The position numbers and the translations under genes were made by a program. DNA of 41,609 nt from positions 1 to 41,609 of the forward strand of contig JADLEZ010000447.1 of NCBI GenBank assembly GCA_020845855.1, read 5' to 3'. The notes under the pieces are model-generated. The model had not been told where the DNA came from, searched no databases, and worked only from the letters and a program-made list of their open reading frames with translations. The DNA comes from Burkholderiales bacterium (lineage in GTDB: Bacteria > Pseudomonadota > Gammaproteobacteria > Burkholderiales > Casimicrobiaceae). The first letter of the stretch is position 1, and each line of letters starts with the position of its first letter. This document shows positions 21,793 through 41,452 of the stretch, in pieces.

Positions 21793-21807
21793 CCTGGAGA
21801 ACTCAAC

Positions 21808-23752: not shown

Positions 23753-24549
23753 CCACCCCAGCACCTGGCACCGCACCCGTCCCCGGCAGCGAGCCGCCGC
23801 CACTGGCCGCGTCCGGTTCCGCGCTGAGCGGCGGCGCGGAGAGTCCGCACGACTGGCTTCCCGAGCGCTACCGCGTGGCGAAGGACGACAAGAGCCTGGA
23901 CGTCGAAGCCTCCGCGCGTAAGCTCGCCGGCGCCTACGGCGAGCTCGCGAAGCGCATGAAGGATGTCGGCCTGCCGCCCGAAACGCCCGACGCCTATGAC
24001 GTCAAGGAGCTGCCGGAGGGCTTGAACTTCGAGGAGCTCAAGAAGGACCCGAAGATGCAGACCTGGTTGAAGGGCGCGCATGCCAAGGGCATGACCAACG
24101 CCCAGATCCAGCACGTGCTCTCGGGCCTGGCAGACGTCGCGCTCGGCGATCGCGAACTCACTGCTGACGATTGCCTCGCGGAGCTGCGCAAGAGCTGGGC
24201 GAGCCCCGCGGACTTCAACCGCAACCAGGCCGCGGCGTATCGAGCGGCAACCCGGCTCGGCGAGCAGGTCGGCGTCACGTTCGCCGAGATCGAGTCCGCG
24301 GGGCTCGGCAACCACCCGCTCTTCATCCGGATCATGGCGAAGATCGGCGAGCACATGCGCGAGGACGGCGCGCCGAACGCGCCGGGCACGCCAGCCCCGC
24401 AGGACTGGCAGGGCCAGATCGATGCGATCCAGAAGCAGCTCGATGAATTGCCGAAGCACGATGGCCGGCGGCGCGAGCTCAACGACCAGAAGCTCAAGCT
24501 CTACGAGCAGAAATTCGGGACGAAACGCGCAGCTGCCTTTGCCGGCTGA
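23749..24549 (+). CDS. Capsid scaffolding-like protein
   Basis: Pro/Ala-rich N-terminus, YRVAKDDKSLDVEASARKLAGAYGELAKRMKDVGLPPETPDAY..., directly upstream of capsid. Confidence 0.75.
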   Translation: MTTPAPGTAPVPGSEPPPLAASGSALSGGAESPHDWLPERYRVAKDDKSLDVEASARKLAGAYGELAKRMKDVGLPPETPDAYDVKELPEGLNFEELKKDPKMQTWLKGAHAKGMTNAQIQHVLSGLADVALGDRELTADDCLAELRKSWASPADFNRNQAAAYRAATRLGEQVGVTFAEIESAGLGNHPLFIRIMAKIGEHMREDGAPNAPGTPAPQDWQGQIDAIQKQLDELPKHDGRRRELNDQKLKLYEQKFGTKRAAAFAG

Positions 24550-24552
24550 GCA

Positions 24553-24572
24553 CTGGTCGGGACTTCGACCAC
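24553..24572. promoter_or_regulatory. Dispersed element copy 2: CTGGTCGGGACTTCGACCAC
   Basis: Identical to 14135..14154; in the leader of the capsid gene. Confidence 0.6.
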
Positions 24573-24740
24573 CTCCCTGAGCCACATTCCACGCCATCGG
24601 CCCCCGGTGGCGTGGGGAACACCCGAGAGCCCGCTTCAGAGCCCGCCCGAGCCGGGGCGAGCGAGCGACATCCAGGCCGCGCGCGAGCGCGAACACCCTG
24701 ACAGGCACGACACGAGTCAACCCTTCCAGGAGCCATCGCC

Positions 24741-25604
24741 ATGTCGCAGCAGATCACAGAGGCCTTTGTCCAGGCCTTCGCCGCCAACTTCCGGCACGTC
24801 GCCCAGCAGAAGACGTCGCGTTTCGAGAACGCCGTGCTGCTCGAGCCGGGCATCGTCGGGACGTCCAAGTCCATCAACCGCCTGGGTCAGCGCACCGCGA
24901 CGCGGCGTCTTACCCGCCACGGCGACACGCCGATCAACGACCAGCCGCACAGCACGCGGTATCTGGATCTCTTCGATTGGGAAGACGGCGACATGCTGGA
25001 CGACCAGGACAAGATCCGCATGCTTACCGACCCGCAGAGCGACTACATCCAGGCTATGGTCGCCTCGCTGAACCGCGCCAAGGACGACGTCGTCATCGGC
25101 GCGCTCGGCGGCAACGCGCGCGCTACCGCGGGCAACATCGCGCTGCCCTCGGGCCAGAAGATCGCGGTGGGCGGCACCGGCCTCACCCGCGCGAAGCTGA
25201 TCAGCGCGCGCGCACTCTTCCGCCGCAATGAGGCGGACGGCGAGCAGGGCGAGGAACTCTTCCTGGCCTACCATGCGACCGGTCTCTCGGACCTGCTGTC
25301 CGACACCTCGCTGACCAACAGCGAGTACAACACGGTGCTCGACATGCAGGCCGGCCGCCCCGTCGGCAGTCTCTTCGGCTTCAAGCCGATCCCGAGCGAG
25401 CGGCAGTCGAAGGTGTCGAGCACTCGCTACATCTACGCCTGGGCGAAGAGCGGCGTTTCGCTCGGCTGGGGCGAGGACATCTTCACCCGCGTCGGCGAGG
25501 ACCCGGGCAAGGGCTTCAACACGCGCGTCTACGCCAAGATGTCCGTCGGCGCGGTGCGCATCGAGGAGGAGAAGGTCGTCGAGATCGCCTGCAACGATCC
25601 CTGA
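24741..25604 (+). CDS. Major capsid protein
   Basis: FVQAFAANFRHVAQQKTSRFENAVLLEPGIVGTSKSINRLGQRTATRRLTRHGDTP, TRVGEDPGKGFNTRVYAKMSVGAVRIEEEKVVEI; podophage capsid family. Confidence 0.88.
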   Translation: MSQQITEAFVQAFAANFRHVAQQKTSRFENAVLLEPGIVGTSKSINRLGQRTATRRLTRHGDTPINDQPHSTRYLDLFDWEDGDMLDDQDKIRMLTDPQSDYIQAMVASLNRAKDDVVIGALGGNARATAGNIALPSGQKIAVGGTGLTRAKLISARALFRRNEADGEQGEELFLAYHATGLSDLLSDTSLTNSEYNTVLDMQAGRPVGSLFGFKPIPSERQSKVSSTRYIYAWAKSGVSLGWGEDIFTRVGEDPGKGFNTRVYAKMSVGAVRIEEEKVVEIACNDP

Positions 25605-25646
25605 TCGCTGACTCTCAACCCCTGACCCTCTCAAGGAGAACTGAAC

Positions 25647-26117
25647 ATGGCCTCTCAAAATGCTTCCATCGCAGCCGCGCGCGCCGCGATCCCGCAGTCG
25701 CTCGTCCGTGGCAACCAGCAGGACGGCGAGCTGCGCGTCTTCTTCTCGACCGTGACCAACCCCGCGTCCGGCGGCGTCGCGGTCGGTGAGTACATCTCCT
25801 GGGGCCATCTGCCCCTGGGTGCGCGCGTCGTCGGCGGCTTCCTCACCTGCTCGGCGGGCGCGTCGAGCTCGACCCTGAACCTCGGCGATGCGGTGACGCC
25901 CGCGCGCTACCTCGCGGCCTCGGCTGTGAACGCGGCGGCGAACGTCGCGATCAACCCGCCCGCGACGTTCGCGAGCGGCGCCGCAGGCTTCGAGGTGAGC
26001 GTCGTGGCGCCGGGCCTCGCGACCGATCACAGCGAGATCCGCTCGGTGTGCGCCGGTGCGAACCTCGGTGCGAACCAGACGCTCACGCTCTATCTGCTGT
26101 ACGTTTGCAACAACTGA
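25647..26117 (+). CDS. Capsid-adjacent structural protein (decoration-like)
   Basis: 156 aa, ISWGHLPLGARVVGGFLTCSAGASSSTLNLGDAVTPARYLAA; immediately after capsid with good RBS. Confidence 0.6.
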   Translation: MASQNASIAAARAAIPQSLVRGNQQDGELRVFFSTVTNPASGGVAVGEYISWGHLPLGARVVGGFLTCSAGASSSTLNLGDAVTPARYLAASAVNAAANVAINPPATFASGAAGFEVSVVAPGLATDHSEIRSVCAGANLGANQTLTLYLLYVCNN

Positions 26118-26153
26118 CAGCGACCACGGGGTGCCCTTTCCCCGTAACCTTCC

Positions 26154-26178
26154 AGGGGGCCTCACGGCCCCCTTTCTT
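26154..26178 (+). terminator. Rho-independent terminator
   Basis: AGGGGGCC-TCAC-GGCCCCCT followed by TTCTT; between capsid block and tail block. Confidence 0.8.
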
Positions 26179-26192
26179 CATGAGGACGGCGC

Positions 26193-26768
26193 ATGAGCTC
26201 GGCGGTCAATATCTGCTCCAACGCCCTCCTGATGCTCGGCGCGCAGCCGGTCGCCTCGCTGTCAGAAGCCAATGACCGGGCGCGTCTCGCATCGAACCTC
26301 TGGCCAGACTGCCGCGCCGCGCTTCTGCGCTCGCACTACTGGAATTGCCTGGTCGCTCGTGTGGTGCTGGCGGCCGACACGGTGGCGCCCGCGTTCGACT
26401 ACGCGTTCCAGTATTCGCTCCCCGGTGATTGGCTGCGCACGATCTCGGTGGGCGAGGAGGGCGCGGAACCAGACTACAAGCACGAGGGGCGGAAAGTCCT
26501 CTGCGACGAGTCGCCGCTGCGCCTGCGGTACGTACGCGACGTCACCGAGGGCGGGTGGGATTCGATGCTCGTCTGGGGCGCGACGCTCGCCATGAAGTCC
26601 GCCATGGCCTACGCGATCACCCAGAGCGCGAGCGTGCGCGACAGCGCGCTGCAGGAACTTGCGAGCTACCTGAGGCAGTGCCGCGCGATCGACGGCCAGG
26701 ACGATCCTGCGCAGACGTTCGGGGACTTCCGGCTGCTCGCGAGCCGCTACACCTCGGGCGGCTGGTGA
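26193..26768 (+). CDS. Tail tubular protein A-like (T7 gp11-type adaptor)
   Basis: ICSNALLMLGAQPVASLSEANDRARLASNLWPDCRAALLRSHYWNCL. Confidence 0.8.
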   Translation: MSSAVNICSNALLMLGAQPVASLSEANDRARLASNLWPDCRAALLRSHYWNCLVARVVLAADTVAPAFDYAFQYSLPGDWLRTISVGEEGAEPDYKHEGRKVLCDESPLRLRYVRDVTEGGWDSMLVWGATLAMKSAMAYAITQSASVRDSALQELASYLRQCRAIDGQDDPAQTFGDFRLLASRYTSGGW

Positions 26769-26771
26769 GCG

Positions 26772-28934
26772 ATGCCGCGCGTCACCACGCTGCAGACCAA
26801 CTTCACGGCGGGCGAGCTCTCGCCGCGGCTCTTCGGTCGCACCGACGTCGAGGCGTACCAGAATGGCGCGGCGGCGCTGGAGAACGTCCTGCCGCTGTTG
26901 CACGGCGGTGTCCGTCGACGCGGCGGCTTCCTGCGAATCGAGGCGTCCAAGGACAGCTCGAAGCGCTCGCGGGTGATCCCGTTCGTGTTTTCGACCTCGG
27001 AGGCGTACCTGCTCGAGCTTGGCCATCAGTACCTGCGCTTCTACAAGGACGGCGCGCGGCTTGGCGCACCCTACGAGATTGCGACTCCCTGGACCGAGGC
27101 GCAGCTCGAGCAGGTGGCCTATGTGCAGGGCGCGGACACGATGTTCCTCTGTCATCCCGCGCACCCCACGCGTCGTCTGCGCCGCTACGGCGACACGCAC
27201 TGGTCGCTCGATGCGATCCCATTCGAGATCGAGCCGCACGACGAGATTGGGCACAGCTTCTCGGTCGCGCTGACCCTGTCGGATGCCACGGTCGGCAGCG
27301 CTCGCACTGCGACCGCGGCAGCCGGGATTTTCCTCGCGGGCGACGTGGGCCGCTCGATCACCTACCAGGGCGGGGTGCTGAAGATCACCTCGGTCGGCTC
27401 CTCGACCGTCGCGACCGGTGATGTCTCGGTCGCCTTCCTGGGTACCGCGATCCCGGCTGATCTCTGGACGCTCGAGGGCTCGCCGCAGGATGCGGTCACG
27501 CCCAGCGCGAAGGATCCGATGGAGGCGGCCTGCACACTCACGACAACCTTGGCCTGCTGGCGCGCAAGTGACGTCGGCAAACTCGTGCGCATCAACGGCG
27601 GCCTCGTCAAGATCGACGCCTACGCGAGCGCGACCAGCGTCTCGGGCAAGATCAAACAGGTCCTTTCCGCGACCGTTGCTGCACCCGCGAACTCCTGGAC
27701 GCTCGAGGCATCGGTCTGGTCGGCGGCCAACGGCTACCCTTCCGCCTGCACGCTCTACCAGCAGCGACTGATCCTCGGGGCGTCCCCGGCGTTCCCGCAG
27801 ACGGTCTGGGGCTCCTCCGTGGGCACCTATCTCGACTTCATGCTCGGCAGCTCCGACTCCGACGGCCTCAGCTACACGCTCGCCTCGGACGAGATCAACC
27901 CGATCCGGCACTTCGCGAGCGGTCGGCTGCTCTTCGCGCTGACCTACGGCGCCGAGTTCTCGATCAAAGGGGGCGTCGAGAAGCCGATCACCCCGACCAA
28001 CGTCCAGGTCGACAACCAGACGGGCTACGGTGCTGCAGGCGTGCGGCCGGTGCGCGCGGGAAAGGATGTGGTCTTCGTGCAGCGCTCGGGCCTGAAGGTG
28101 CGCCGGTTGAGCTACGAGGCGTCCGACGAGGACTTCGACGCCGAGGACTTGGCCGTGCTCTCGGAGCACATCACCGGTCCGGGCGTCGTGGATCTCGCTT
28201 GGCAACAGGAGCCGGAGCCCACGCTCTGGTGCCTGCGTGCCGACGGTGTGCTCGCGTCGCTGTCGCTGTCCCAGAAGCAGGGCGTCGCGGCCTGGGCACG
28301 CCAGATGACCGACGGCGTGGTCGAGTCGATCGCGCGCATCCCGGTCGCCGGCGGCGAGCAGCTCTGGGCGATCGTGCGCCGCAGCCTCGGAGGCGCCACG
28401 GTACGCCACATCGAGCGCCTCGACCCCGCGATCGGTACCGACTGCGCGCTGGTGCAGACGGCCGCAGCGCCGGGGCTCTCGACTTGGTCGGGCCTCGCGC
28501 ACCTCGAGGGCGAGGAAGTCGACGTCGTGGCGGACGGGGCGTACATGGGCCGCTTCACAGTCGTCGGCGGATCGATCACCTTACCGCGCCCCGCGCTCAA
28601 GATCGAAGCCGGCCTGCCGTTCACCGCTCGCGTCAAGCTCCTGACGCCCGAGCTGCAGACTGGCCTCGGATCCGCCCAGGGAAACAGCATGCGCACCGGC
28701 GAGCTCACGCTGCGCCTCCTCGAGACCTATGCGGCGAAGGTGAATGGGCAGGAGGTGGCGCTGCGGCAGTTCGGCGCTGATCTGCTCGATGATCCTCCGC
28801 CGGCGTTTACGGGCGTGAAGCGCATCGAGCTGCTCGGCTGGGGCCGCGGAAGTTCCGACATCGAGATCACGAGCGAGGTGCCGCTGCCGTTTCACCTGCT
28901 CGCGGCCGTACGCAAGTTCACGGTCAACGACTGA
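26772..28934 (+). CDS. Tail tubular protein B-like / nozzle protein
   Basis: QTNFTAGELSPRLFGRTDVEAYQNGAAALENVLPLLHGGVRRRGGFLRI; SACTLYQQRLILGASPAFPQTVWGSSVGTYLDF. Confidence 0.85.
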   Translation: MPRVTTLQTNFTAGELSPRLFGRTDVEAYQNGAAALENVLPLLHGGVRRRGGFLRIEASKDSSKRSRVIPFVFSTSEAYLLELGHQYLRFYKDGARLGAPYEIATPWTEAQLEQVAYVQGADTMFLCHPAHPTRRLRRYGDTHWSLDAIPFEIEPHDEIGHSFSVALTLSDATVGSARTATAAAGIFLAGDVGRSITYQGGVLKITSVGSSTVATGDVSVAFLGTAIPADLWTLEGSPQDAVTPSAKDPMEAACTLTTTLACWRASDVGKLVRINGGLVKIDAYASATSVSGKIKQVLSATVAAPANSWTLEASVWSAANGYPSACTLYQQRLILGASPAFPQTVWGSSVGTYLDFMLGSSDSDGLSYTLASDEINPIRHFASGRLLFALTYGAEFSIKGGVEKPITPTNVQVDNQTGYGAAGVRPVRAGKDVVFVQRSGLKVRRLSYEASDEDFDAEDLAVLSEHITGPGVVDLAWQQEPEPTLWCLRADGVLASLSLSQKQGVAAWARQMTDGVVESIARIPVAGGEQLWAIVRRSLGGATVRHIERLDPAIGTDCALVQTAAAPGLSTWSGLAHLEGEEVDVVADGAYMGRFTVVGGSITLPRPALKIEAGLPFTARVKLLTPELQTGLGSAQGNSMRTGELTLRLLETYAAKVNGQEVALRQFGADLLDDPPPAFTGVKRIELLGWGRGSSDIEITSEVPLPFHLLAAVRKFTVND

Positions 28935-29392
28935 TGCACATCCGTCCGGCAAGGTACGACGATATCCCGCGCATCGTCGCGCTCGGCGCGCTGATGGCCG
29001 CGGAGAGCCCGCGCTGGTCGCGCCTCGCGTATAGCCGCGAGAAAGTGCGCGCGCTCGCTTACGAGCTCGTCGGCTCGGCGCAGGGATATCTGTACGTGGC
29101 GGAAGATCAGCACCTCGAGGTCGTCGGCTTCATGGCCGCGATGTGCCAGGAGCACTGGTGCAGCGAGGATCTCGTGATCGCCGAGCTTGCGCTCTACGTG
29201 GAGCCCGCGCGCCGCGGCAGTAGCGCGGCCGCGCGTCTGTTGCAGAGCTTCAAGGTCTGGGCGGTTCGCCGCGGCGCGCGCATGATCCTCGCCGGCTGCT
29301 CGACGGGCATCGGCGACGAACGGGCCGCGCGGCTCTACGAGAAGGTCGGTTTCCGCCGAGCCTCGATCGGCCTGGAGTTGCAGCATGTGTGA
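28934..29392 (+). CDS. GNAT-family N-acetyltransferase
   Basis: IRPARYDDIPRIVALG..., IAELALYVEPARRGSSAAARLLQSFKVWA, ARLYEKVGFRRA. Confidence 0.82.
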   Translation: MHIRPARYDDIPRIVALGALMAAESPRWSRLAYSREKVRALAYELVGSAQGYLYVAEDQHLEVVGFMAAMCQEHWCSEDLVIAELALYVEPARRGSSAAARLLQSFKVWAVRRGARMILAGCSTGIGDERAARLYEKVGFRRASIGLELQHV

Positions 29393-29795
29393 TCCCGTGA
29401 CCCTGTTGGTCGCTTCGACGGCGGTGAAAGCGACCGGCAGCGTGCTCGCCGGCAAAGCGCAGAAGCGCGGCGCCTACGATGAAGCGGCCGGTCTGCAGGA
29501 TGAGGCGCGCGCGCAGGCGAAGGTGATCCGGCGCCAGGCTGCGGAGTCGCGCTCCCGTGCCACCGCGAACTACGCCGCGTCGGGCGTGGACGTTTCCGAA
29601 GGCACGCCCCTCATCATCGAGCGGGTCATCACCGAACGCTCGGAGCAGGACGTCGGCAACACGCTGCTGACCGCCGATCGGCGCGCCGCGGCGCTGCGCA
29701 AGGGTGGCAAGGCCGCCCAGGCCGCGGGCTACATCAGCGCCGCCGGCAGCGCGCTGCAGACCGGCGGCAGCATCGCGCAGGGGGGCTGGAAGTGA
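29385..29795 (+). CDS. Internal virion/ejection protein (T7 gp14-like)
   Basis: 136 aa; VTLLVASTAVKATGSVLAGKAQKRGAYDEAAGLQDEARAQAKVIRRQAAESRSRATANYAASGVDVSEGTPL. Confidence 0.75.
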   Translation: MCDPVTLLVASTAVKATGSVLAGKAQKRGAYDEAAGLQDEARAQAKVIRRQAAESRSRATANYAASGVDVSEGTPLIIERVITERSEQDVGNTLLTADRRAAALRKGGKAAQAAGYISAAGSALQTGGSIAQGGWK

Positions 29796-31936
29796 AGATC
29801 CCGCTCGGAGACTTCGGCAACGTCGTCGGCGAGGGTCGGCGCGGCGCGGATACCTCGGCGATCGGCCGCGCGGTCCAGGGCCTCGGCGATACCGGCCAGG
29901 CGATCGCGGTCGAGATGCAGCGGGAACGTCAGCGCCTCGCTTCCGAGGAGCAGCAGGAGCGGCGCGCGATGGCGCGCGCGCAGGCCGACAACGCAGCGCT
30001 CGACTACGAGCTCGAGGTGAAGCGGCGGGAAGCGGGTGCCGCTGAGGATCTGACCACGGGCGACCTCGACCCCGACCGGGCCGTCCGCCGATTCGACGAC
30101 GAGATCGCGCAGATCCAGGAGCCCGAGATCGAGCATCTCGACCCGATCGCGCGTGAGAGTCTCGGCCGCGCACGCCGCCGCATCGCGGCGGCGGGTCGCA
30201 TGAAAGTCGAGGGCGTCGCGACCGCCGCACGCCGGCGCGCCTACCAGTCGCAGTTCGCCACCGCCCTCGACACGCTCGGTAAGCAGGCGGGTCTGCCGGG
30301 GGCCGACATCGAGGCGATCAACGCCCGCGCGGAGGCCTACCGCGACCTAGGCCGCCAGGCGGGGCTGCCGCCCGATCAGCTCGGCCGGGCCCTCCAGGAC
30401 TTCAAGGACCGCAACTGGCTGAACCACGCTCAGTCCCGGTCGATGGCCGCGAGGAACTCACTCCCGCAGCTCGAGGCGCTCGCCAAGGACCTCACTGCAG
30501 CCGACGGCTACTATGCGAGCCGCCTCGACACCGACCGCCGCAATGCGCTCCTGCGCGGCGTGCAGGCCGACCAGGACCAGCTGCGGATCCGGATCGAGAA
30601 CCAGGCGCTGAGGGTCGAGGCGCGCGCTGAGCGGGCACTGGCGGCCATCGACCGGCAGATCGCCAGCGGCGTGCCGGCGACGCCGCAGATGTGGGCCGCT
30701 TGGCAAGCCCAGGTCGCTGGCTCTCAACTAACGGGCGAGTTCCGGCAGCGCCTGGACGACGAGGCCGAAATCCAGCGGGTGCTGCGCTCGCCGGTCGATC
30801 AGCAGCTGCGCCTGGTCCAGGAGCGCGAGGCCAAGCTGACTCGGGACGGCGGCTCGATCGCTGAGGCCGCGAACGTGGCGCGACTGCGCAGGGCGGTCGA
30901 CGCCTCGGTCCAGAAGCTGCACGAGGCGCCGCTGTCGTTCGCCGAAGAGCGCCTGGGCGTCGAGAACCAGCCGATCGATCTCTCTCGGCTGCTCGAGCCG
31001 GGCGGCGCGAGCCAGGTTGCGGCGCTGCTCGGCGAGCGCGCGGCGACCATCGACTCGCTGCGCAAGCAGTTCGGCGGATCGGTGCCGCTGCGACCGCTGC
31101 TGCCGCAGGAGTCGCAGACCCTCGCCTCGACGCTCGAGAGCGCGAGCCCCGCCCAGGCGTCGCAGTTCTACGCGGCGCTGCGCCACGCGGCGGGCGACGA
31201 CACGGTGTTTCGCGGCGCGATGCAGCAGATCGCGCCGGATTCGCCGATCAAGGCGCTTGCGGGCGTGCTCTCCTCGAAGCAACGCGCCCTCACGCTCGAG
31301 CGCAACTGGATCGCGGACGACGTCGTCGCCTCGAGCCGTGATGTCGCGGTGACGCTCCTGCAGGGCGAGCGCCTGCTCAATCGTAGCGAGGGCGACAAGA
31401 CCGCGGACGGCAAGGCCCAGCCGAAGCTGTTCCTGCCCGAGACGACGACCTTGCAGGCGAGCTTCCAGGCCGAGGTGGGACGGGCGTTCGCCGGCCGACC
31501 CGGCGCCGCCGAACTCGCCTTCCAGGCCGTCCAAGCCTACTACGTCGGCAAGGCCGCGCAGACCGGGCGGCTTGCGAGCAGCAACAGCGACATCGACTTG
31601 GGACTCGTGCGCGAGTCGGTACGCGCCACCCTCGGCACCGTGGTCACCTACAACGGCAACGACGAGGTGATCGCACCCTGGGGCATGGACGCTGGCGAGT
31701 TCGAGGATCGTGTCGAGACCGCCATCCGCATCGAGGCGAAGCGGCGCAATCTCCCGTGGCAGGCCGAGACCCACAGCAGGTCGGTCGGGCTCGTGAACGG
31801 CAGCCGCGACGGCGAGTACACAGTCACGGTCGGTCGCCGGCTGGTGCTCGACGATCAGGGCCAGCCCGTGACGATCAACGTGCACTCCAACGATCCAGGC
31901 GAGCGATCCGGTGCGATTGCGCGAGGCAGCCGATGA
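29792..31936 (+). CDS. Large internal virion/ejection protein
   Basis: 714 aa helical protein in the T7 gp15 position. Confidence 0.75.
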   Translation: MKIPLGDFGNVVGEGRRGADTSAIGRAVQGLGDTGQAIAVEMQRERQRLASEEQQERRAMARAQADNAALDYELEVKRREAGAAEDLTTGDLDPDRAVRRFDDEIAQIQEPEIEHLDPIARESLGRARRRIAAAGRMKVEGVATAARRRAYQSQFATALDTLGKQAGLPGADIEAINARAEAYRDLGRQAGLPPDQLGRALQDFKDRNWLNHAQSRSMAARNSLPQLEALAKDLTAADGYYASRLDTDRRNALLRGVQADQDQLRIRIENQALRVEARAERALAAIDRQIASGVPATPQMWAAWQAQVAGSQLTGEFRQRLDDEAEIQRVLRSPVDQQLRLVQEREAKLTRDGGSIAEAANVARLRRAVDASVQKLHEAPLSFAEERLGVENQPIDLSRLLEPGGASQVAALLGERAATIDSLRKQFGGSVPLRPLLPQESQTLASTLESASPAQASQFYAALRHAAGDDTVFRGAMQQIAPDSPIKALAGVLSSKQRALTLERNWIADDVVASSRDVAVTLLQGERLLNRSEGDKTADGKAQPKLFLPETTTLQASFQAEVGRAFAGRPGAAELAFQAVQAYYVGKAAQTGRLASSNSDIDLGLVRESVRATLGTVVTYNGNDEVIAPWGMDAGEFEDRVETAIRIEAKRRNLPWQAETHSRSVGLVNGSRDGEYTVTVGRRLVLDDQGQPVTINVHSNDPGERSGAIARGSR

Positions 31937-33732
31937 GTGCGGTCTTCGAACTCGACCCGCGCGGCTGGGAGGCGCTGGTTGCCGACGCACAGGCCAATCC
32001 ACTGGATCTCTCCAGGCTGCGCCCAGCCCCCCTCGAGAACGCGGCGAGCGCGATCGGCCAGGGCGTGATGCGCGGTGGCGCGCGCGTTGCGCAGTTCGTC
32101 GGCATGGCTGCCGCAGCGCCTGCGGTGCTCTATGCGAAGGCGGCCGATGCCCCCGAGCTCGTGGACCCCTACTTCCGCAAGCTCGACGAGCTCGTCACCG
32201 ACGCGGTCGACTACTGGACCCCGAGCGCCCAGGAGACCGGCACCATCGGCCGCATCTTCGGCGGGCTCGCCGAGATCGTGCTGCCGCTGATGGCCGGCGG
32301 CGGCAACCCGACGCTGCTGCTGGGCTCGCAGCAGATGGGCATCGCAATGGACCTCGCGCGCCAGGGTGTCGATTCCGACACGGCGGTTGGAGTCGGCGCC
32401 GTGCAGGGCGCAGCGACCGCGGTCGGCTTCCGACTGCCGTATCTCGGCAAGACGCTCGCCTCGCGCATCGGCTCAGGCATCGGCGGCAACCTCGCGACCA
32501 GCATGAGTGCGGCTGCGGTCTCGCGCGAAGTCCTGCGCTCGCAGGGCTTCAACGCGCAGGCGCAGTCGTTCGATCCGCTCGATGTGGAGGCGCGTGCGAT
32601 CGACGTGCTCACCGGCGCTGTGTTCGGCGGTCTTGCGCACCTCGCGACGCCGACGCAGCGCGCCGCGGCCGCCGGCGCGATGAACGCCCGGAACTTCCAG
32701 GCCGATAGCGCACCGGGACGAGCGGCGGACCTCGAGGCGAGCGCCGCGCACCAGAGCGCGCTGGGAACGGCGCTCAAGCAGCTCTCCGACGGCGAGCCGG
32801 TGAACGTGCCGGCGGCCGTGGCCGATGCCAAGTTCGTCGACACGCCCGCGCGCGCGGCGCAGCGGGCGCAGATCGCCGACGCCATCCTCGCGGAGATGCG
32901 CCAGCTCGAAGAGGCCTACGGTGAAGTGTTGGCGCGGCCGCGAGGGCCCGCTGACGACCCACTCGTGCGCATCCAGCCAGAAGACATCGAAGCCGTCGTC
33001 GTTGCGCGGGGCGGCTGGCGAGGAAAAGGCGACGTCGAGGTGAAAGGATCGGGCTGGGGCCTCGCGAAGTTCATCTGGCGCCATGGGGAGGGCAGCGACA
33101 AAGCCCCCGCATACCAGGTGGGGCGCGAGGACGTGCTGGCCTTCCCGAGTGTCATTCGAGAGTTCGAGCCCTCGCGGGCTGCAGCTGCCGACGGGAGCTT
33201 GGGTCGCGAGTGGCGCATATCGCGGCCCGGCGCGGACGGGGCCTCGCGAACGGTCGTCTACGCGGACAACCTCATCGAAGGCCGGTCCGACCGACACCTC
33301 GTGACGGTCTACGTGCAAGAGCCTGGCTTGCCCGGAACCGATGCGGCGCTGTCGCGCGGCATCGACGAGCCCGGAGTCCCGCGCCCGGACTTTGGAGGTC
33401 CAGCGCGGATACCGCCTGCGGACTTTCGATCGTCGCAGCAGGGGTCCGGGCCGCCTGCCGGCTCAGCACCGGCTCAATCCAGTGTACCCGCGGGCGGCGC
33501 CGAGGCAAGAGGGGAAACTGCCGAGTCTGTCGTGGTCCGCGCCGCCCGCGAGGCGGTTGCGGCGCCCGAAGCCACGGTCCCGATCGACCAGTTCGACGCC
33601 GACGGTCGTCCGCAGGTCGAGCGCGCGGCGGACGTGCTGGCGCGGGCCGACGACGCCGTGAAGCGCGCCCAGACCGACGCGCAGGGCTTCCTGGCCGCCG
33701 TCACCTGTTTCCTGAGCCTAGGGGGTCGCTGA
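31933..33732 (+). CDS. Ejection protein with embedded BECR/PBECR-like nuclease domain
   Basis: Hydrophobic/Ala-Gly-rich N-terminus; GSGWGLAKFIWRHGEGSDKAPAYQVGREDVLAFPSVIREFEPS...REWRISRPGADGASRTVVYADN; ATGA overlap. Confidence 0.65.
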   Translation: MSAVFELDPRGWEALVADAQANPLDLSRLRPAPLENAASAIGQGVMRGGARVAQFVGMAAAAPAVLYAKAADAPELVDPYFRKLDELVTDAVDYWTPSAQETGTIGRIFGGLAEIVLPLMAGGGNPTLLLGSQQMGIAMDLARQGVDSDTAVGVGAVQGAATAVGFRLPYLGKTLASRIGSGIGGNLATSMSAAAVSREVLRSQGFNAQAQSFDPLDVEARAIDVLTGAVFGGLAHLATPTQRAAAAGAMNARNFQADSAPGRAADLEASAAHQSALGTALKQLSDGEPVNVPAAVADAKFVDTPARAAQRAQIADAILAEMRQLEEAYGEVLARPRGPADDPLVRIQPEDIEAVVVARGGWRGKGDVEVKGSGWGLAKFIWRHGEGSDKAPAYQVGREDVLAFPSVIREFEPSRAAAADGSLGREWRISRPGADGASRTVVYADNLIEGRSDRHLVTVYVQEPGLPGTDAALSRGIDEPGVPRPDFGGPARIPPADFRSSQQGSGPPAGSAPAQSSVPAGGAEARGETAESVVVRAAREAVAAPEATVPIDQFDADGRPQVERAADVLARADDAVKRAQTDAQGFLAAVTCFLSLGGR

Positions 33733-36176
33733 TGCGCCCGGAATGCGTCGCCGCCGTTGCCCAGGCCATCGGCCGGGAACCGACAGCCGAGGAGGTCTCC
33801 GGGTACGAGGCCGGTATCGAAGCCGCGCTGCGCCAGCTGCGGCGCGAGCAAGGGGCCGACTTCCTGTCGACTCCCGTGGCCGAGCGCCTGCAGGCCGCAG
33901 CGGAGCGGGCCGCGCAGGACCTGCTGGAGCAGGCGAAGCGCGCACGCGAACAGACCGCCCAGCGCATCGTCGCCACCCAGCGTGCGGTGGCGCGCGTGCA
34001 GCAGTTGCACCAGGGCGGCGAGCCCGTGGCGACCGCGCTCGGCCGCTTCCTTGAGCAGGCTGACGTCTATGGCAAGGGCGTCTCGCGGGACTACTTCTCG
34101 CGCCTGGTCGACACCATCCGCGCCGCCGAGCCGCGCTTCTTCGGCCTGCTGCAGGATGCCGCGAGCGTGCGCGACTTCGTGCGCGAGGTGCGCGGCGAGG
34201 CGAGCGGGAATGCCACGGCGGCCAAGGGGGCCAAGGCCTGGCTCGAAACCGTTGAGGCCATGCGCCAGCGCTTCAACCGCGCCGGCGGCGACATCGGTCA
34301 GCTCGACTATGGCTACCTCCCCCAGCCGCATGACATGGCGCGCGTGGCGGCGGCGGGACGCGAGGGCTGGGTCGCCGACGTGCTGCCGCGGCTCGACCAC
34401 GCGCGCTACCTGCGCGCCGATGGCGGGGCGATGAGCCAGGCGGAGCTCGTGCAGTTCCTCGCTCACGCCTACGACACGATCTCGAGCAACGGCGTGAACA
34501 AGCTCGAGCCGGGCCACAGCGGCGGGGTCGGTGCGCGTGTCAACCGCCACGCCGAGAGCCGGCAGATCCACTTCCGCGATGCCGACGCCTACCTCGGCTA
34601 CATGGAGCGCTTCGGCCGTGGCAGCGTGTTCGAGGCGATGCAGGGTCACGTGTCGGTGCTCGCGCGCGACATCGCGCTGGTTGAGCAGATGGGGCCGAAC
34701 CCCGAGCATCTCTTCCGCTACCTCGACGATCTCGCGATCAAGGCGGACGGGCGCCGCCGGCTGATCGGCCCGTTCGCGGTGCGCGCCAAGGACCTCTGGT
34801 CGGTGCTGTCCGGATTCACCAGCCAGACGGCTCACCAGCGCCTCGGCGACATCGCCCAGGGTGTGCGCAACTACACCGTGGCGGCGAAGCTGCAGGGCAC
34901 GCTGCTCTCCTCGATCACGGACATCCCGACGCTCGCGCTGACCGCGCGCTACAACCGCCTGCCCGTGCTGCAGACCTTCGCGAACGTGCTGCGCAGCTTC
35001 GGCGCCGAGACGGGCGAGTACGCCAACCGCGCGGGGCTCGTGGCCGACTCGGTCATCTCCGACATGAATCGCTGGGCCGAGGGCAACCTCGGCCACAACT
35101 GGACCGGCAAGCTGGCGAACACCACAATGCGCGTCTCGCTGATGAACGCCTGGACGGATGCGCTGCGGCGCGGCTTCTCGGTGACGCTGATGGGCGCGCT
35201 CGGCAAGCTCTCCCGCATCGACTGGGACGCGCTGCCCGAGGCCGATCGAGCGCACCTTGCTCGCAAGGGCGTCACGGCTGCGGACTGGAAGCTCTGGCGG
35301 CTCGCGCAGCCGGAAGTTTGGCGCGGCGCACAGATGCTGACGCCCGAGGCGGTGCGCGCGATCCCCGACGCACGGCTCGACGGCGTGGCCGACGTCGCGC
35401 AGGCGAAGGATGCCGCGGTCGCCAAGCTCCTCGGTGTCATCACCGACGAATCCGAGTATGCGGTGGTCAGCCCTGACCTCATGACCCGCGCGGCGCTCAC
35501 CCGCTCGACGCAGAAGGGCGAGGCGCTCGGCGAGATCACACGTTCGGTGGCGCTGTTCAAGTCGTTCCCGCTCGCGATGATTTCGCGCCATCTGCGTCGT
35601 GCCGCGCAGATGCCCGACACCGCGGGCGCGCTCGGTTATGCCGCTTCGCTGATCGCAGGCCTCGCCGCCTTCGGTGCGGCGTCGCTGACGGCCAAGGACA
35701 TCGTGACCGGCAAGGACCCGCGGCCGATGGACTCTGGGAAGTTCTGGGCCGCCGCGCTCGTGCAGGGCGGCGGGCTCGGGATCTACGGTGACATCCTCTA
35801 CACTGGCATGGGCGGGCAGACCCGCGGCGGTCAGGCCAACTGGACGAGCCTCATGGGGCCGGTGTTCGGCACGGGCGCGGACCTGCTCGACGTGACGCTC
35901 GGCAACCTCGGCCAGGGCCTGCAGGGCAAGGACCCGCATGCGGCGGCGGAGCTGCTGCGCTTCTCGCGGCAGAACCTGCCCTTCGTCAACCTCTGGTACG
36001 CTCGCGCCGCGCTCGATCACGCGGTGTTTCACGAGATGCAGGAGGCGCTGAGCCCGGGGTATCTCGCGAAGATGCGCCAGCGCGCGGCGCGCGATTGGGG
36101 TCAGCGGTTCTGGTGGGAGCCGGGCGAGGCACTGCCCTCGCGCGCGCCGGACTTCGAAGCGGCCTTGGGAGAGTAG
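33732..36176 (+). CDS. Large ejection/internal core protein (T7 gp16 position)
   Basis: 814 aa helical protein, start overlaps previous stop (TGATG). Confidence 0.75.
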   Translation: MRPECVAAVAQAIGREPTAEEVSGYEAGIEAALRQLRREQGADFLSTPVAERLQAAAERAAQDLLEQAKRAREQTAQRIVATQRAVARVQQLHQGGEPVATALGRFLEQADVYGKGVSRDYFSRLVDTIRAAEPRFFGLLQDAASVRDFVREVRGEASGNATAAKGAKAWLETVEAMRQRFNRAGGDIGQLDYGYLPQPHDMARVAAAGREGWVADVLPRLDHARYLRADGGAMSQAELVQFLAHAYDTISSNGVNKLEPGHSGGVGARVNRHAESRQIHFRDADAYLGYMERFGRGSVFEAMQGHVSVLARDIALVEQMGPNPEHLFRYLDDLAIKADGRRRLIGPFAVRAKDLWSVLSGFTSQTAHQRLGDIAQGVRNYTVAAKLQGTLLSSITDIPTLALTARYNRLPVLQTFANVLRSFGAETGEYANRAGLVADSVISDMNRWAEGNLGHNWTGKLANTTMRVSLMNAWTDALRRGFSVTLMGALGKLSRIDWDALPEADRAHLARKGVTAADWKLWRLAQPEVWRGAQMLTPEAVRAIPDARLDGVADVAQAKDAAVAKLLGVITDESEYAVVSPDLMTRAALTRSTQKGEALGEITRSVALFKSFPLAMISRHLRRAAQMPDTAGALGYAASLIAGLAAFGAASLTAKDIVTGKDPRPMDSGKFWAAALVQGGGLGIYGDILYTGMGGQTRGGQANWTSLMGPVFGTGADLLDVTLGNLGQGLQGKDPHAAAELLRFSRQNLPFVNLWYARAALDHAVFHEMQEALSPGYLAKMRQRAARDWGQRFWWEPGEALPSRAPDFEAALGE

Positions 36177-36178
36177 GC

Positions 36179-36523
36179 ATGCGACTCGATCAGTACGACC
36201 GCCTCCAGGCGCTGCAGGAGCGGCTCACCGATACGGTGCTGCAGGAAGCCGACCCGGATCGTTGGCCGGGCGAGGGCAAGGAGCTCGCCGCGCTCACGCG
36301 CGAGGAGCGCGGCGATCGGTACTGGTGCAAGCGCAATGCCGCGGCGACGCTCTCGATCATCATGAAGGTCCATACCCTGCTGGGCGCTACCCATGCGCGT
36401 GGTGTCGCGCGACCGAACGAGACCGACGACGAGGTCGATCTCGAGCAGGAGGTGCGCCAGGCGGAGAAGGAAGCCGCGGCGATCCTCGAGAAGATGCAGA
36501 AGCGGGCGCGTGCCAGGCAGTAA
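36179..36523 (+). CDS. Putative terminase small subunit
   Basis: 114 aa basic/acidic helical protein overlapping the TerL start; position only. Confidence 0.55.
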   Translation: MRLDQYDRLQALQERLTDTVLQEADPDRWPGEGKELAALTREERGDRYWCKRNAAATLSIIMKVHTLLGATHARGVARPNETDDEVDLEQEVRQAEKEAAAILEKMQKRARARQ

Positions 36524-38150
36524 AGCGCCGGTCTCGTTCCTCGTCTTCTTCCTGCTCTGGGCGCGGGTCCAGCGCTGGCAAGTCCCGGAGCTTCATGTTC
36601 GCATCGCGAACTGGCTCGAGGAGTGTCGCGACCCGACCCGTGTGCTGCTGGTCTTCCGTGGCGCAGCCAAATCCACGATCTACGCGGTCTACAAGGCCTG
36701 GCAGCTCTACTGCGATCGCTCGGCACGCTCGCTGATCTGGGCCGCCGACGACAAGCTCGCCACCAAACTCACGCGCGACACGCTCAACGTGCTGCGCCGC
36801 CATCCGCTTTGCAAGGGCATGCTCCCGCCGAAGCCCGGCGCGCAGTCATTCTGGATCAACGGCGCGACCGACGCGCGCAACCCGAGCCTCGATGCCGTCG
36901 GCGTGAACTCGAACGCCACCGGCTCGCGCGCCGATGCGATCGACTTCGACGACGTTGAAGTCCCGAAGAACATCAAGACCCCCGAGGCGCGCGCGAACTT
37001 GCGAGCGAAGATCGAAGAGTCCACCCACATCGCGGTGCCAGGCGGCCAGAAGACCTATATCGGCACGCCCCACACGCACGACAGCATCTATACCGAGCAG
37101 ATCGAAGGGGGCGCCGCCGTGCTGAAGATCCCGCTGTTCGAGCATGTGCGGCGGCACGAGAAGACCGACCAGGCCACGCGCTACCGCTTCGACTTCGAGC
37201 CGGGGACGGACGGTCTCTACGTGATCCTCGGGATCGGTGGCGGGGCAAGAATCCTCGCTGTGGGCGCCGACTACCAGGTGGAGCGCGGCGAAGTGGTGTT
37301 CGCCGCGCCGCCGCGCGCGGTACTCGATATCTGTGCCGGCTGCGCCTGGCCGGAGCGATTCACGCGAGCGGACATCGAGCAGCGCCGACGCGCCACGCGC
37401 ACGCTCAACGCCTGGGACTCGCAGTACCAGCTCGAGGCAAAGCCGGCGCAGGACATCCGCCTCGACCCTGAGAAGATCATCGCTTATGACCTCGAGCCGC
37501 GAATCCGCGAGGCGAACAACGCCGCGGAGTTGCTGCTCGGCAGCGTGCGCATCGTCGGCGCCGCGGCGTATTGGGATTGCAGCCTGGGCAAGCTGAAGAG
37601 CGACGCCTCGGTGTTTTCGATCGTCTTCACCGATGCGCGCGGGCAGCTCTACTGGCACGTGGCCGAGGGGTTGCTCGGCGAGCTCGCGGACTTCAACGAG
37701 CGCGGGCAGCTCGTCGGCGGGCAGTGTGCCGCGATACGAGGCCTCGTGGTGCGCTACCGGATCGGGCGCGTCGAGGTCGAGACCAACGGTCCGGGCGGCT
37801 TCGTGCCGCCGATCCTGCGCCGCGCGCTCGCGGGCACCGGCTGCGGGGTCGCCGAGGTGTTCAACAAGGCCGACAAGCGCGCGCGCATCCTGGACGCCTT
37901 CGAGCCGGTGCTCTCGGTCCGCGCCCTCTGGGCGCACCGGCGCGTCCTCGAGGGGCCGCTCTGGGACCAGATGAAGGACTTCAGTCCCGGCGTCCGTGAC
38001 CAGCCTGACGACTACCTCGATTCGGGCGCCGGCGCCATCAGTGCGACCCCGGTGCGCCTCGGGCACGTGGTCGGGACTTCGACCGGGGAACCCCGCAAGG
38101 ATTGGCGCCCAGCGAGCGGCGTGCACGAGGTGACGCTCGAGCTCGAGTGA
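36510..38150 (+). CDS. terL: Terminase large subunit (T7-type)
   Basis: VLLVFRGAAKSTIYAVYKAWQLY deviant Walker A, SLIWAADDKLATKLTRDTLNVLRRHP, AIDFDDVEVPKN, YIGTPHTHDSIY, nuclease-domain YWDCSLGKLKSDASVFSIVF. Confidence 0.88.
   Translation: MPGSKAPVSFLVFFLLWARVQRWQVPELHVRIANWLEECRDPTRVLLVFRGAAKSTIYAVYKAWQLYCDRSARSLIWAADDKLATKLTRDTLNVLRRHPLCKGMLPPKPGAQSFWINGATDARNPSLDAVGVNSNATGSRADAIDFDDVEVPKNIKTPEARANLRAKIEESTHIAVPGGQKTYIGTPHTHDSIYTEQIEGGAAVLKIPLFEHVRRHEKTDQATRYRFDFEPGTDGLYVILGIGGGARILAVGADYQVERGEVVFAAPPRAVLDICAGCAWPERFTRADIEQRRRATRTLNAWDSQYQLEAKPAQDIRLDPEKIIAYDLEPRIREANNAAELLLGSVRIVGAAAYWDCSLGKLKSDASVFSIVFTDARGQLYWHVAEGLLGELADFNERGQLVGGQCAAIRGLVVRYRIGRVEVETNGPGGFVPPILRRALAGTGCGVAEVFNKADKRARILDAFEPVLSVRALWAHRRVLEGPLWDQMKDFSPGVRDQPDDYLDSGAGAISATPVRLGHVVGTSTGEPRKDWRPASGVHEVTLELE
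38068..38084. promoter_or_regulatory. Dispersed element copy 3: TGGTCGGGACTTCGACC
   Basis: 17 bp shared with the 14135 and 24553 copies; inside terL 3' end, 101 bp upstream of tail-fibre ATG. Confidence 0.5.
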
Positions 38151-38185
38151 GCGGGGCGCGGCCTCGCGCCACCAGGGGCGAGGCG

Positions 38186-39970
38186 ATGACAGTTCCGGTT
38201 CAGCAATCCTCGAGTTCGACGGTCGGCAACGGCAGCACCACCGTCTTCCCGTATCCCTTCAAGATCCTCGACGAAGGCGACCTGCAGGTCTATGTGGGCG
38301 GTGCGCTCAAGGTCCTGGGCGCCGACTACACCGTCTCTGGCGTCGGCAATGCCAGCGGCGGCAACGTCACCTTCACCACGGCTCCGGCCGACCTGGTCAT
38401 CGTCGACCTGGTGCGCGCCATGGCGATCGAGCGCGAGACCGACTATCAGCAGCAGGGCGACTTCCTCTCGCCCGTCGTCAACGCCGACTTCGACCGCATC
38501 GTGCTCATGTTGCAGCAGGTCGACGACAAGGGCGGCCGCGCGATCCGGATGCCGACCAACGAGCCGAGCGCAATCACGCTGCTGCCCTCGCGCGCGGCAC
38601 GCGCGAGCAAGTACCTGCGCTTCAACGCCAACGGCGATGCCGAGGTTGCAGATTTGGTGGACTCAGGGGCGCCGCTCTCGGCGAGCGTCATCGGCGCGCT
38701 CCTGTACCCGCAGAGCGCAGCGGAGTCAGCCGCCGCAGTCGTTCCGACGTCCTACGCCTACCCGCCCGGCGACGTGCGCCGCTACGGCGCAGATCCAACG
38801 GGTATCGCCTCCAGCACCGCGGCGATCAACACGGCGCTGTCGGTCAACCAGACCGTCACCTTTCCCGCCGGCACCTATCTCGCCTCGACCCTCACACAGA
38901 CGCATCACGATCAGCGCCTTCTCGCGCTGGGCAACGTGCGTGTCGTGAAGAACGCCAACGGTGTACTACTCACGGCAAGCGGCAATGGCGTCGAGATCAA
39001 CGGCATCAGCTTCCGGGGCGATGCGGTCTCGCCAACCTACACCGGTGACAATCTGAATTTTTCCGGAGACAACGTCAGGCTCATCAACTGCGGATCGCGG
39101 TGGGCATACGGCAGGGCGCTGAAGTCTACAGGTCAGCACACGCAGATCATCGGGACCTGCGACATCTACCAGACGGCGGACGCCACGGGTACCGGCTACG
39201 ACATCGAGCTTGGCATCTCGGGCACGGCGACGCTCTACCACCACGTCAGCCACGTCTATTCGTCGCAGGCCACCGGCGGCATCAAGATGGTCGACACGGG
39301 CTCGGTGGTGGTGCAGGGCTCGCAGTTCGGCAAGCTCTTCATCGATGCGGGCACCTCGCCCGCCGGCGTGAACGGTGGAAATTTCAGCGGCAACCGCATC
39401 CTCGGCGACGTGACGGTGGAACTGTCGTCGGCGGCGTTCGCGGCCAACTCATTCGGCACCGTCGCGCTGACCTTCGCCGCGGGCACGTCGGGGCACACGC
39501 TCGACGACTCCAACGTGCTCGCCGGCGGCGCGACGATTACGGACAACTCGACCGGGTCGAGCGTTGTCGACCTTCGCACCGTCGTCCCGACGGCCTACAC
39601 GCCGACGTGGACCGGCGCGAGCGTGAATCCTGCCATCGGCAACGGCACGCTGACGGGCTACTACACACAGCGCGGACGCCACGTCTCGGTGGCGGTACGC
39701 GTCGTCATGGGTAGCACGACGACCTACGGGACCGGGGTGTGGTACTTCGCGCTGCCGAAGATTCCGTCAACCGGCGTCCCTCTGCTCGGCGCGGCCCGCG
39801 CGCTCGACAGTGGCACGAATATCCGCGTCGGCGTTGTCGAGACGCTGACCGACGGCACTGCACGCTGCCAGGTGATGTTCGACAGCGACACGGGCTCGGC
39901 CGACTCGACGAAGCCGTTCGCGTGGGCCAGCGGCGACGAGCTGCGCTTCTCCGTCGACTACTTCACCTGA
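38186..39970 (+). CDS. Tail fibre/tailspike with T7-fibre-like N-terminus and pectate-lyase-like beta-helix
   Basis: NGSTTVFPYPFKILDEGDLQVYVGG...DYTVSGVGNASGGNVTFTTAPA (T7-type adaptor) then VRRYGADPTGIASSTAAINTAL...VTFPAGTYLAS. Confidence 0.88.
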   Translation: MTVPVQQSSSSTVGNGSTTVFPYPFKILDEGDLQVYVGGALKVLGADYTVSGVGNASGGNVTFTTAPADLVIVDLVRAMAIERETDYQQQGDFLSPVVNADFDRIVLMLQQVDDKGGRAIRMPTNEPSAITLLPSRAARASKYLRFNANGDAEVADLVDSGAPLSASVIGALLYPQSAAESAAAVVPTSYAYPPGDVRRYGADPTGIASSTAAINTALSVNQTVTFPAGTYLASTLTQTHHDQRLLALGNVRVVKNANGVLLTASGNGVEINGISFRGDAVSPTYTGDNLNFSGDNVRLINCGSRWAYGRALKSTGQHTQIIGTCDIYQTADATGTGYDIELGISGTATLYHHVSHVYSSQATGGIKMVDTGSVVVQGSQFGKLFIDAGTSPAGVNGGNFSGNRILGDVTVELSSAAFAANSFGTVALTFAAGTSGHTLDDSNVLAGGATITDNSTGSSVVDLRTVVPTAYTPTWTGASVNPAIGNGTLTGYYTQRGRHVSVAVRVVMGSTTTYGTGVWYFALPKIPSTGVPLLGAARALDSGTNIRVGVVETLTDGTARCQVMFDSDTGSADSTKPFAWASGDELRFSVDYFT

Positions 39971-39975
39971 CGCTC

Positions 39976-40176
39976 ATGGACGGCGATAAGCGACCGCCCT
40001 TCGGCGGCCTAACCGAGGGCGAAATCGAGGCGCTTGTCGAGCGCGTGACGAAGCACGTGATCGAGAACTTCTACAGAGAAGTCGGGAGAAACGTGGTGGG
40101 AAAATTCCTCTGGCTCGTCGGTGTTGTGACGGTGGGCGTTGCGACCTATCTCGGCCTCACCGGCAAGGGTCCGTGA
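39976..40176 (+). CDS. Holin-like single-TM protein
   Basis: 66 aa, VVGKFLWLVGVVTVGVATYLGL; upstream of endolysin. Confidence 0.5.
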   Translation: MDGDKRPPFGGLTEGEIEALVERVTKHVIENFYREVGRNVVGKFLWLVGVVTVGVATYLGLTGKGP

Positions 40177-40553
40177 TGGCGCTCTCGGCTCGCTCGGAAC
40201 GTAACCTGCGCGGCGTGCATCCGGATCTCGTGAAGGTCGTGCGCCTGGCGGCTTCGATCTCAACGCAACCCTTCGAAGTTATCGAAGGGTTGCGCACGGC
40301 GGCGCGCCAGGCAGAGCTCGTGAAGGTTGGCGCCTCGCGCACGCTGAAGTCGCGGCACCTGACCGGGCACGCCGTCGACCTCGCGGCGCTGGTATCCGGC
40401 ACGATCCGCTGGGACTGGCCGCTGTACCGACGGCTCGCTATGGAGGTCAAGGCCGCAGCGCGTGATCTCGGCGTGGCCATCGTCTGGGGCGGTGACTGGA
40501 AGACGTTCAGGGACGGCCCGCACTTCGAGCTCGCGCGGAGTGACTACCCATGA
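40176..40553 (+). CDS. M15-family peptidase endolysin
   Basis: SRHLTGHAVDLAAL and DGPHFELA zinc/catalytic motifs; IVWGGDWKTFRDGPHFE. Confidence 0.88.
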   Translation: MALSARSERNLRGVHPDLVKVVRLAASISTQPFEVIEGLRTAARQAELVKVGASRTLKSRHLTGHAVDLAALVSGTIRWDWPLYRRLAMEVKAAARDLGVAIVWGGDWKTFRDGPHFELARSDYP

Positions 40554-40837
40554 GCATGAAATCGGCCGCGAACGCCACCGCCGACCGCTTCCCTGTTCTG
40601 ATCCAGCGGTCCACCTCCCAGCTCGCGGTGCGCCTGGTCGTGCTGGCGCAGGGCCTCTGGAACATCCTGGCGATCCTCTTCACCCAGAGCGAGGGCGCGG
40701 TGCGCTTCGCGCTCGTCGTAAACACGTGCTTCGCCGCGGTCGTCTTCCTGCAGGTTGAGCTGCGCAAGCTCCTCGACCTGTTCGGGCCCGATCTGAAGGC
40801 GGCGGCCGGACAGCCGCCGGCCGCCGGCACGCAGTGA
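40550..40837 (+). CDS. Small membrane protein (holin/antiholin candidate)
   Basis: Two hydrophobic segments LAVRLVVLAQGLWNILAILF and FALVVNTCFAAVVFLQV. Confidence 0.55.
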   Translation: MSMKSAANATADRFPVLIQRSTSQLAVRLVVLAQGLWNILAILFTQSEGAVRFALVVNTCFAAVVFLQVELRKLLDLFGPDLKAAAGQPPAAGTQ

Positions 40838-41313
40838 TCCCGCTCTGGTGGCGGCTTGGCGCCATCGCGGCCGCGTTGCTGGTCGGCCTCGCGGTGGGCG
40901 GCACCGTGGCGTGGAAGTGGCAGGCATCGCGCGTAAGCCACGCAGAAGCCCGTATGGCGGAGCTCCAGCGGGGCGCGGAGACAGCCGCTCGGCAAGAGCT
41001 GCAGCGGCAGGCCGAGCGCGAGGCTCGCGCCAGGGCCAACAATGACCGGTTGCGAAAGGAGAGGGACGATGCGATCCGGGATGCTGATGCTCGCGGCGCT
41101 GATCTGGCTGCCCGGCTGCTCGACGCCCGGGCGGACGCTGCCCGTAGTCGTGCGCTGTCCGAAGCCGGCGATCGACAGCGAGCTCTTGATGCCGCCGACT
41201 TCGCCCGCCGCGAGGGCGAGATTGCTCGAGCTGTTGCCGCCTACGACGCCGCCTGCCAGCGCGACGCGGCCCAGCTCATCGCCCTGATCGGGCAGCTCGA
41301 GCCGCAGCTCTGA
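40834..41313 (+). CDS. i-spanin (Rz-like, GTG start)
   Basis: N-terminal TM LGAIAAALLVGLAVGGTVAWKW then long coiled coil; embedded Rz1-like lipoprotein ORF. Confidence 0.85.
   Translation: MIPLWWRLGAIAAALLVGLAVGGTVAWKWQASRVSHAEARMAELQRGAETAARQELQRQAEREARARANNDRLRKERDDAIRDADARGADLAARLLDARADAARSRALSEAGDRQRALDAADFARREGEIARAVAAYDAACQRDAAQLIALIGQLEPQL
41069..41287 (+). CDS. o-spanin lipoprotein (Rz1-like) embedded in the Rz-like gene
   Basis: MRSGMLMLAALIWLPGC lipobox, Pro-rich tail, different frame inside the i-spanin. Confidence 0.8.
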   Translation: MRSGMLMLAALIWLPGCSTPGRTLPVVVRCPKPAIDSELLMPPTSPAARARLLELLPPTTPPASATRPSSSP

Positions 41314-41424
41314 CCGTTCACTATGCGTTGCTATGTGCCTGATTCCATTGCAACGTATCGCACCATTTCGGGGTATGTTTGCGCGGCGCAGAATAGACGT
41401 AACGCGCTGATCGTTAAGGGAAAT

Positions 41425-41452
41425 ATGCGGATCCTGTTCGTCTGCTTGGGAA
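41425..41452 (+). repeat. attR: attR core
   Basis: 28-bp identical to attL. Confidence 0.93.

Follow-up and report, generated by a model that had tools for sequence, protein, structure and literature searches.

Prophage integration at the 5' end of an LMW-PTP gene, with a probable attachment core in the catalytic P-loop codons

In the 41,609-nucleotide stretch of DNA analysed here (the window), a podovirus-like prophage lies between two copies of a 28-bp repeat, and this repeat is, with high confidence, the att core, where the lambda-type integrase of the prophage brings about recombination between attP and the opening codons of LMW-PTP in the host. The repeat, ATGCGGATCCTGTTCGTCTGCTTGGGAA, is present in exactly two copies (3854-3881 and 41425-41452), with 0.00 copies expected from shuffles and no further match across the rest of the assembly, and it opens at the ATG of LMW-PTP and runs into the P-loop, as the initial annotation had described. 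The bases preceding it differ between the junctions, being ctg at attL vs aat at attR. At attL, the TGA stop of kdsB overlaps the ATG as TGATG, and the frame continues for 37 codons before a stop (MRILFVCLGSRWTRGFSAENRHPSLSIHYSIDRATGA*). At attR, an intact LMW-PTP frame with the restored N-terminus MRILFVCLGNICRSPTAHG extends up to the contig end, which falls within the gene and leaves 61 codons of it visible. The same annotation's description of a regenerated ORF at attR, a dead ORF carrying the old start at attL and unlike flanks before the ATG was borne out at each point. Genes on the left of attL are msbA, lpxK, a Trm112-like ORF and kdsB, with LMW-PTP on the right of attR. Features of the two junctions are as follows.

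3072..3854, plus strand: host kdsB (PF02348, 5.8e-56), its TGA overlapping the PTP ATG
3854..3881, plus strand: attL copy of the 28-bp identity (exact sequence match)
3854..3967, plus strand: dead 37-codon ORF, the old PTP start joined to phage DNA (translation)
41416..41421, plus strand: Shine-Dalgarno-like AAGGGA, phage-supplied (sequence)
41425..41452, plus strand: attR copy of the 28-bp identity, phage-derived from the start codon to the catalytic Cys codon
41425..41609, plus strand: restored LMW-PTP, ended by the contig end (PF01451, 4e-15)

Position 41425 is the probable start of the restored PTP, though an ATG at 41323 is an alternative. In the region 41323-41424 the PTP frame is open for 37 codons 5' of the core with this ATG in frame, making a 34-residue N-terminal extension possible. 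The leader AAGGGA just 5' of the ATG at 41425 would replace the translational coupling to kdsB.

LMW-PTP comes after kdsB in many gammaproteobacteria. The native kdsB-PTP junction of Pseudomonas has the identical TGATG overlap (ctgATG) seen at attL. When the window flanks were joined in silico, the same kdsB-PTP arrangement as in Pseudomonas was obtained. Since such native TGATG junctions occur in Pseudomonas, the empty site is, judged from sequence, an ordinary arrangement, and the adjacency of the two genes at the unoccupied site, on which the initial annotation had relied, is found among relatives. The assembly itself is a contaminated MAG (8.06%), with a second kdsB on contig C58 that has 49% identity to the window kdsB and additional LMW-PTP genes on contigs C197 and C242. 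Because of this contamination, the low identity of the second kdsB and the best matches of the window kdsB reaching just 56-59%, the window contig probably derives from an organism other than the named bin, its host being an unplaced proteobacterium. The contamination and the extra kdsB and PTP genes could also suggest a mis-assembly of two PTP-bearing molecules; however, contamination bears on the identity of the host and not on the junction, both ends match an expected lysogen and independent assemblies reveal the same design, so that a mis-assembled contig is very unlikely.

The prophage encodes tail, virion and lysis proteins of known families and a podovirus-like head-tail connector (PF12236, phrog_332). 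Its int, xis and lysis genes occupy canonical positions, and the features relevant to its integration and borders are listed below.

3882..41424, no strand assigned: podovirus-like prophage, 37.5 kb
3923..3929, plus strand: lambda-like arm-type site TCACTAT, P' arm (motif match)
3934..3940, plus strand: second TCACTAT, P' arm (motif match)
3954..5054, minus strand: tyrosine integrase of lambda type, 366 aa (PF00589, 1.1e-16; PF09003 Arm-DNA-bind_1, 6.5e-10)
5035..5259, minus strand: excisionase (PF07825 Exc, 2e-15; phrog_629)
40173..40553, plus strand: M15 endolysin at the right end of the prophage (phrog_465, 1.8e-55)
40834..41313, plus strand: Rz-like spanin, the final phage gene before attR (phrog_2466, 6.6e-5)
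41318..41324, plus strand: arm-type site TCACTAT, P arm (motif match)
41400..41412, minus strand: IHF-like site GATCAGCGCGTTA, 7/9 informative positions, 12 bp upstream of the core

The catalytic residues of the integrase (R213, H317, R320, H341 and Y350) are invariant in an alignment of 18 rows. Its N-terminal arm-binding domain PF09003 scores above the cutoff, likewise in the integrases of L120, L130, L132 and L144, and a search for this domain in the L151 integrase detected none. TCACTAT, which we take to match the lambda arm-site core, has four copies in the window, three of them inside the 185 bp of the attP arms (P ~1e-6), which places predicted arm-type sites in both P and P'. In most of 20 cores, an IHF-like site precedes the reference codon by 11-12 bp or, one helical turn further out, by 23 bp, and sites scoring at least 8/9 were present in 9 of the 20 cores vs 0.27 in shuffles (maximum 2). 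On the other side of the core, parS-like palindromes (TGTTTCACGGGAAACA, TGTTTCCCGTGAAACA and CTCCACGTGGAAC) were observed in L120, L122, L123, L127 and L130, placed 5-32 bp beyond the right edge of the 28-bp reference core. They reach at least 12/14 in 5 of 17, with shuffles reaching 11/14 averaging 0.085 (maximum 2), and may serve in ParB-like binding, as arm sites or as a terminator.

A scan of viral contigs with an alignment of integrase relatives yielded 80 viral loci, in which the PTP N-terminus was scanned for up to 700 bp beyond int. The LMW-PTP 5' motif scored 29-47 vs a background of about 8-23, with 17 distinct contigs clear, and an LMW-PTP 5' core beside int is carried by 16 other viral contigs, L151/G983 having the same layout. 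The distance from core to int is 80-470 bp, most often 80-170 bp when counted from the int stop, and the core usually runs on the other strand from int, as it does in the window, with L132 reversed. Because phage-family proteins (endolysins, metallophosphoesterases, an HNH endonuclease and others) lie beyond the core in several of these contigs, their cores are most likely attP and a few could be attL; known phage-family proteins in this position were confirmed in part of the contigs. No LMW-PTP core was seen beside int for the remaining integrases of the tree or for the cultured phages closest by integrase (LPPA33, Pocitis76, Tbat2_3, 813R8 and 689R6), and an exact scan of the viral contigs for the 28-bp sequence gave no match. 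Searches with a single integrase in its own family and class returned distant relatives or none, and a genome-contig scan with a single integrase returned no relatives. A single clade of PTP-targeting integrases was rejected, the PTP label requiring 8 changes on the tree vs 14 in shuffles. Since the label is scattered in this manner, LMW-PTP may have been the original target, from which some integrases switched later, or cores may have escaped detection.

Lysogens with the same design were found in three further genomes, with both junctions seen in two of them, G983 and G1043. In G983, a 59.8-kb contig, the uvrB stop is followed by an attL with the native MAARFRVLMVCMGNIC joined to phage DNA, and MRKAAVLFVCMGNICRSP stands in a complete PTP at attR. 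In G1043, uvrB is followed by MKVSVLFVCMGNI* at attL on contig C8, and attR (MNNKEKVGVIFICMGNICRSP) lies at the end of a separate contig, C6. Thus, the gene upstream of attL is uvrB in both, vs kdsB in the window. In G1268, int lies directly upstream of a complete PTP beginning MITLNKTSVLFICMGNICRSP, and the displaced native 5' end was not found within 58 kb. The restored PTP proteins of G983 and G1268 are supported by Pfam. Taken together, an in-frame replacement 5' end at attR is found in the window, G983, G1043 and G1268, and a displaced native 5' end at the other junction in the window, G983 and G1043. The 5'-end gene target that the initial annotation had recognized in one prophage, and the related integrases it had proposed to look for at the same site, accordingly extend to 16 other viral contigs and these three lysogens. 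That the repeat could instead stem from homologous or illegitimate recombination that captured a piece of PTP might be entertained, as it sits in a conserved gene, but Int, xis, the arm sites and the IHF-like site are correctly placed around it and the same core recurs beside int in many unrelated phages, which renders this explanation scarcely credible.

Several additional observations were made among these loci. G1095 was dropped as a further lysogen, because ~55 bases at its contig end are found unchanged on another contig, suggesting an artefact of assembly. In L132 and at G1268:C4:158989-160679, int is on the PTP side and hence the phage is inverted relative to the target gene. Downstream of its att core, L122 encodes another tyrosine integrase, unlike the first (phrog_1, 6.8e-44), which suggests tandem elements at one site. 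In another integrase group, many loci from L146 to L188 contain the frame KKDRIRFLYSVQGNGSWE about 85-156 bp after int on the plus strand, probably a different conserved attachment target. Finally, L192 has at 4151 on the minus strand a VCTANIC-type candidate for an LMW-PTP core, below the score used.

Comparison of the junction pairs narrows the zone of crossover. The stretch identical between attL and attR measures 28 bp in the window and is shorter in the other two lysogens, at 18 bp for G983 (TGCATGGGCAATATCTGC) and 13 bp for G1043 (TCTGCATGGGCAA). All three have TGC-NTGGGNA(A) in common, corresponding to the P-loop codons Cys-Leu/Met-Gly. Within it, the following elements are predicted.

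3864..3892, plus strand: inverted repeat TGTTCGTCTGCTT-GGG-AAGCAGATGGACA, candidate pair of Int core-type sites around the crossover (from sequence, role predicted)
3875..3881, plus strand: predicted 7-bp overlap TTGGGAA at attL, from the inverted-repeat centre, the right end of the identity and the zone shared with G983 and G1043
41446..41452, plus strand: predicted 7-bp overlap TTGGGAA at attR, on the same grounds

The inverted repeat is strong in the window, and core-site symmetry over all phages is moderate, with a sum of 66 at the predicted centre tied by two other offsets, and strong symmetry in all phages was dropped as a basis for the overlap. Because of this moderate symmetry and non-unique centre, the overlap assignment rests on the inverted repeat of the window and the three junction pairs. 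Since the 28-bp identity in the window stops at the last base of the predicted overlap, its right border looks set by recombination, and the extra 18 bp at its left is consistent with a core acquired from this host or a closely related one.

The initial annotation had proposed that selection for coding restoration bounds the identity at the start codon. This explanation draws on the window identity beginning at the A of the ATG with different flanks, and on the coding constraint upon the phage-side half. However, as a general rule it is contradicted by G983 and G1043: there the shared sequence starts at the Cys codon or slightly ahead of it, and the start codons of the restored genes are in non-identical DNA. 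Furthermore, a mismatch in the base before the ATG is a 3-in-4 chance event, and in many phages the N-terminus includes additional codons ahead of the beta-strand (MKNIRVLFVC, MKKTRILFVC and MRKAAVLFVC). A bound imposed at the start codon is hence quite improbable, and the identity used in recombination would not need to begin at this codon, 18-21 bp upstream of the crossover.

Coding restoration as such is supported. In 20 phage-side left halves, Cys7 and Gly9 are each present in 20/20, and over codons 3-9 second positions are nearly invariant with third positions mostly variable; these rows were picked by peptide resemblance, which inflates residue conservation while leaving the third-position pattern unaffected, and some of the cores, few in number, are possibly attL. 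To the right of the overlap, phage copies lose P-loop coding, this non-coding side having drifted. Because third-position variation with retained Cys and Gly matches such selection, the phage side appears constrained to supply a working 5' end. As to the broad host range suggested by the initial annotation, it is supported at the level of the integrase family, which spans gamma- and beta-type hosts, and not for the window phage, since each phage carries its own core needing a match and the 7-mer TTGGGAA occurs in 0 of 48 other LMW-PTP copies (CTGGGCA in 15, ATGGGCA in 13). A conserved P-loop would leave few overlap types, easing movement among hosts.

The mechanism that we propose can be outlined as follows. 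As the sequence shows, the phage carries a substitute 5' end comprising a leader, a Shine-Dalgarno-like sequence, the start codon, the first beta-strand and the catalytic Cys codon. Strand exchange would take place over the 7-bp overlap in the Leu/Met-Gly codons after the catalytic Cys, guided by two predicted TCACTAT arm sites in P' and one in P and by a presumably IHF-bent leader immediately upstream of the core. After integration, the gene at attR is a phage-host hybrid with an open frame and an intact P-loop, the displaced native start stays as a dead ORF behind kdsB at attL, and excision by Int and the Exc-family protein would reform the native kdsB-PTP overlap. Loss of the translational coupling to kdsB, and a scan for sigma-70 promoters upstream of the restored PTP that gave no match, could point to an insertion that acts as a lysogenic switch, actively shutting off or deregulating the phosphatase instead of preserving it. 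Such a switch seems unlikely, however, as the frame and catalytic residues are kept in every restored gene seen and the phage-side half shows coding constraint. Extending the proposed att mechanism beyond the window, we tentatively suggest, with doubt somewhat outweighing confidence, that the P-loop codons are an old shared target of a large family of lambda-type integrases in gamma- and betaproteobacterial phages, that ~60 bp of attP are dual-coded as IHF-bend site, start codon and catalytic Cys, and that every lysogen uses a phage-encoded active site and N-terminus. If so, the phage-encoded N-terminus could alter PTP expression or activity in lysogens.

Physiologically, LMW-PTPs act in tyrosine-kinase signalling and exopolysaccharide export, and lysogeny could therefore touch these traits. 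Phages of this kind also offer a natural experiment in keeping a recombination core and a part of an enzyme active site both functional, and a truncated xRxLFVCxG frame beside int provides a rule for finding prophage borders.

Among known systems, the window integrase has 37% identity to HK022 Int. The HK022 attB is intergenic. The HK022 att lies elsewhere than that of the window, which is inside a coding gene with restoration. Shared with lambda and HK022 are the Arm-DNA-bind_1 domain, putative IHF-like sites and an Exc-family Xis (PMC4880445; X51962); the lambda complex is built from core, arm and IHF sites (PMC4880445), and the annotated HK022 attP contains one copy of TCACTAT (X51962). The 5' end is a less common target than the 3' end, as the initial annotation had stated, yet it is documented, with restoration of the gene, for prfC, dusA and msrA. 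Integration at the 5' end with restoration is known at prfC for the SXT/R391 ICE, which differs from the window in being a conjugative element with one nearly uniform integrase (PMC2791158). The PhiM247 prophage resides at the msrA 5' end and, like the window, has its att over the 5' end of a protein gene; it differs as a Gram-positive siphovirus with a long att, spanning 96 nt of msrA (PMC10763512). The dusA-specific integrases, found in genomic islands and prophages at the dusA 5' end, resemble the window in combining a tyrosine integrase with the 5' end of a conserved protein gene and an element-supplied new 5' end, in short conserved att repeats (21 bp at dusA) and in diverse elements that share only the integrase-target pair (Farrugia et al. 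2015, PMC4482086). The part replaced in dusA is a TIM-barrel strand without a known cofactor- or tRNA-binding residue according to its authors (PMC4482086), whereas that of LMW-PTP includes the catalytic cysteine, and LMW-PTP rather than dusA (or dusB/C) was the target in all cases found. A full-text literature search, with subscription papers outside its scope, returned no paper describing LMW-PTP as the target of a prophage. With 5' integration and restoration already known, what appears new here is LMW-PTP as the target and a replaced part that contributes the enzyme's catalytic nucleophile, adding a target gene and a large integrase-target association to these systems.
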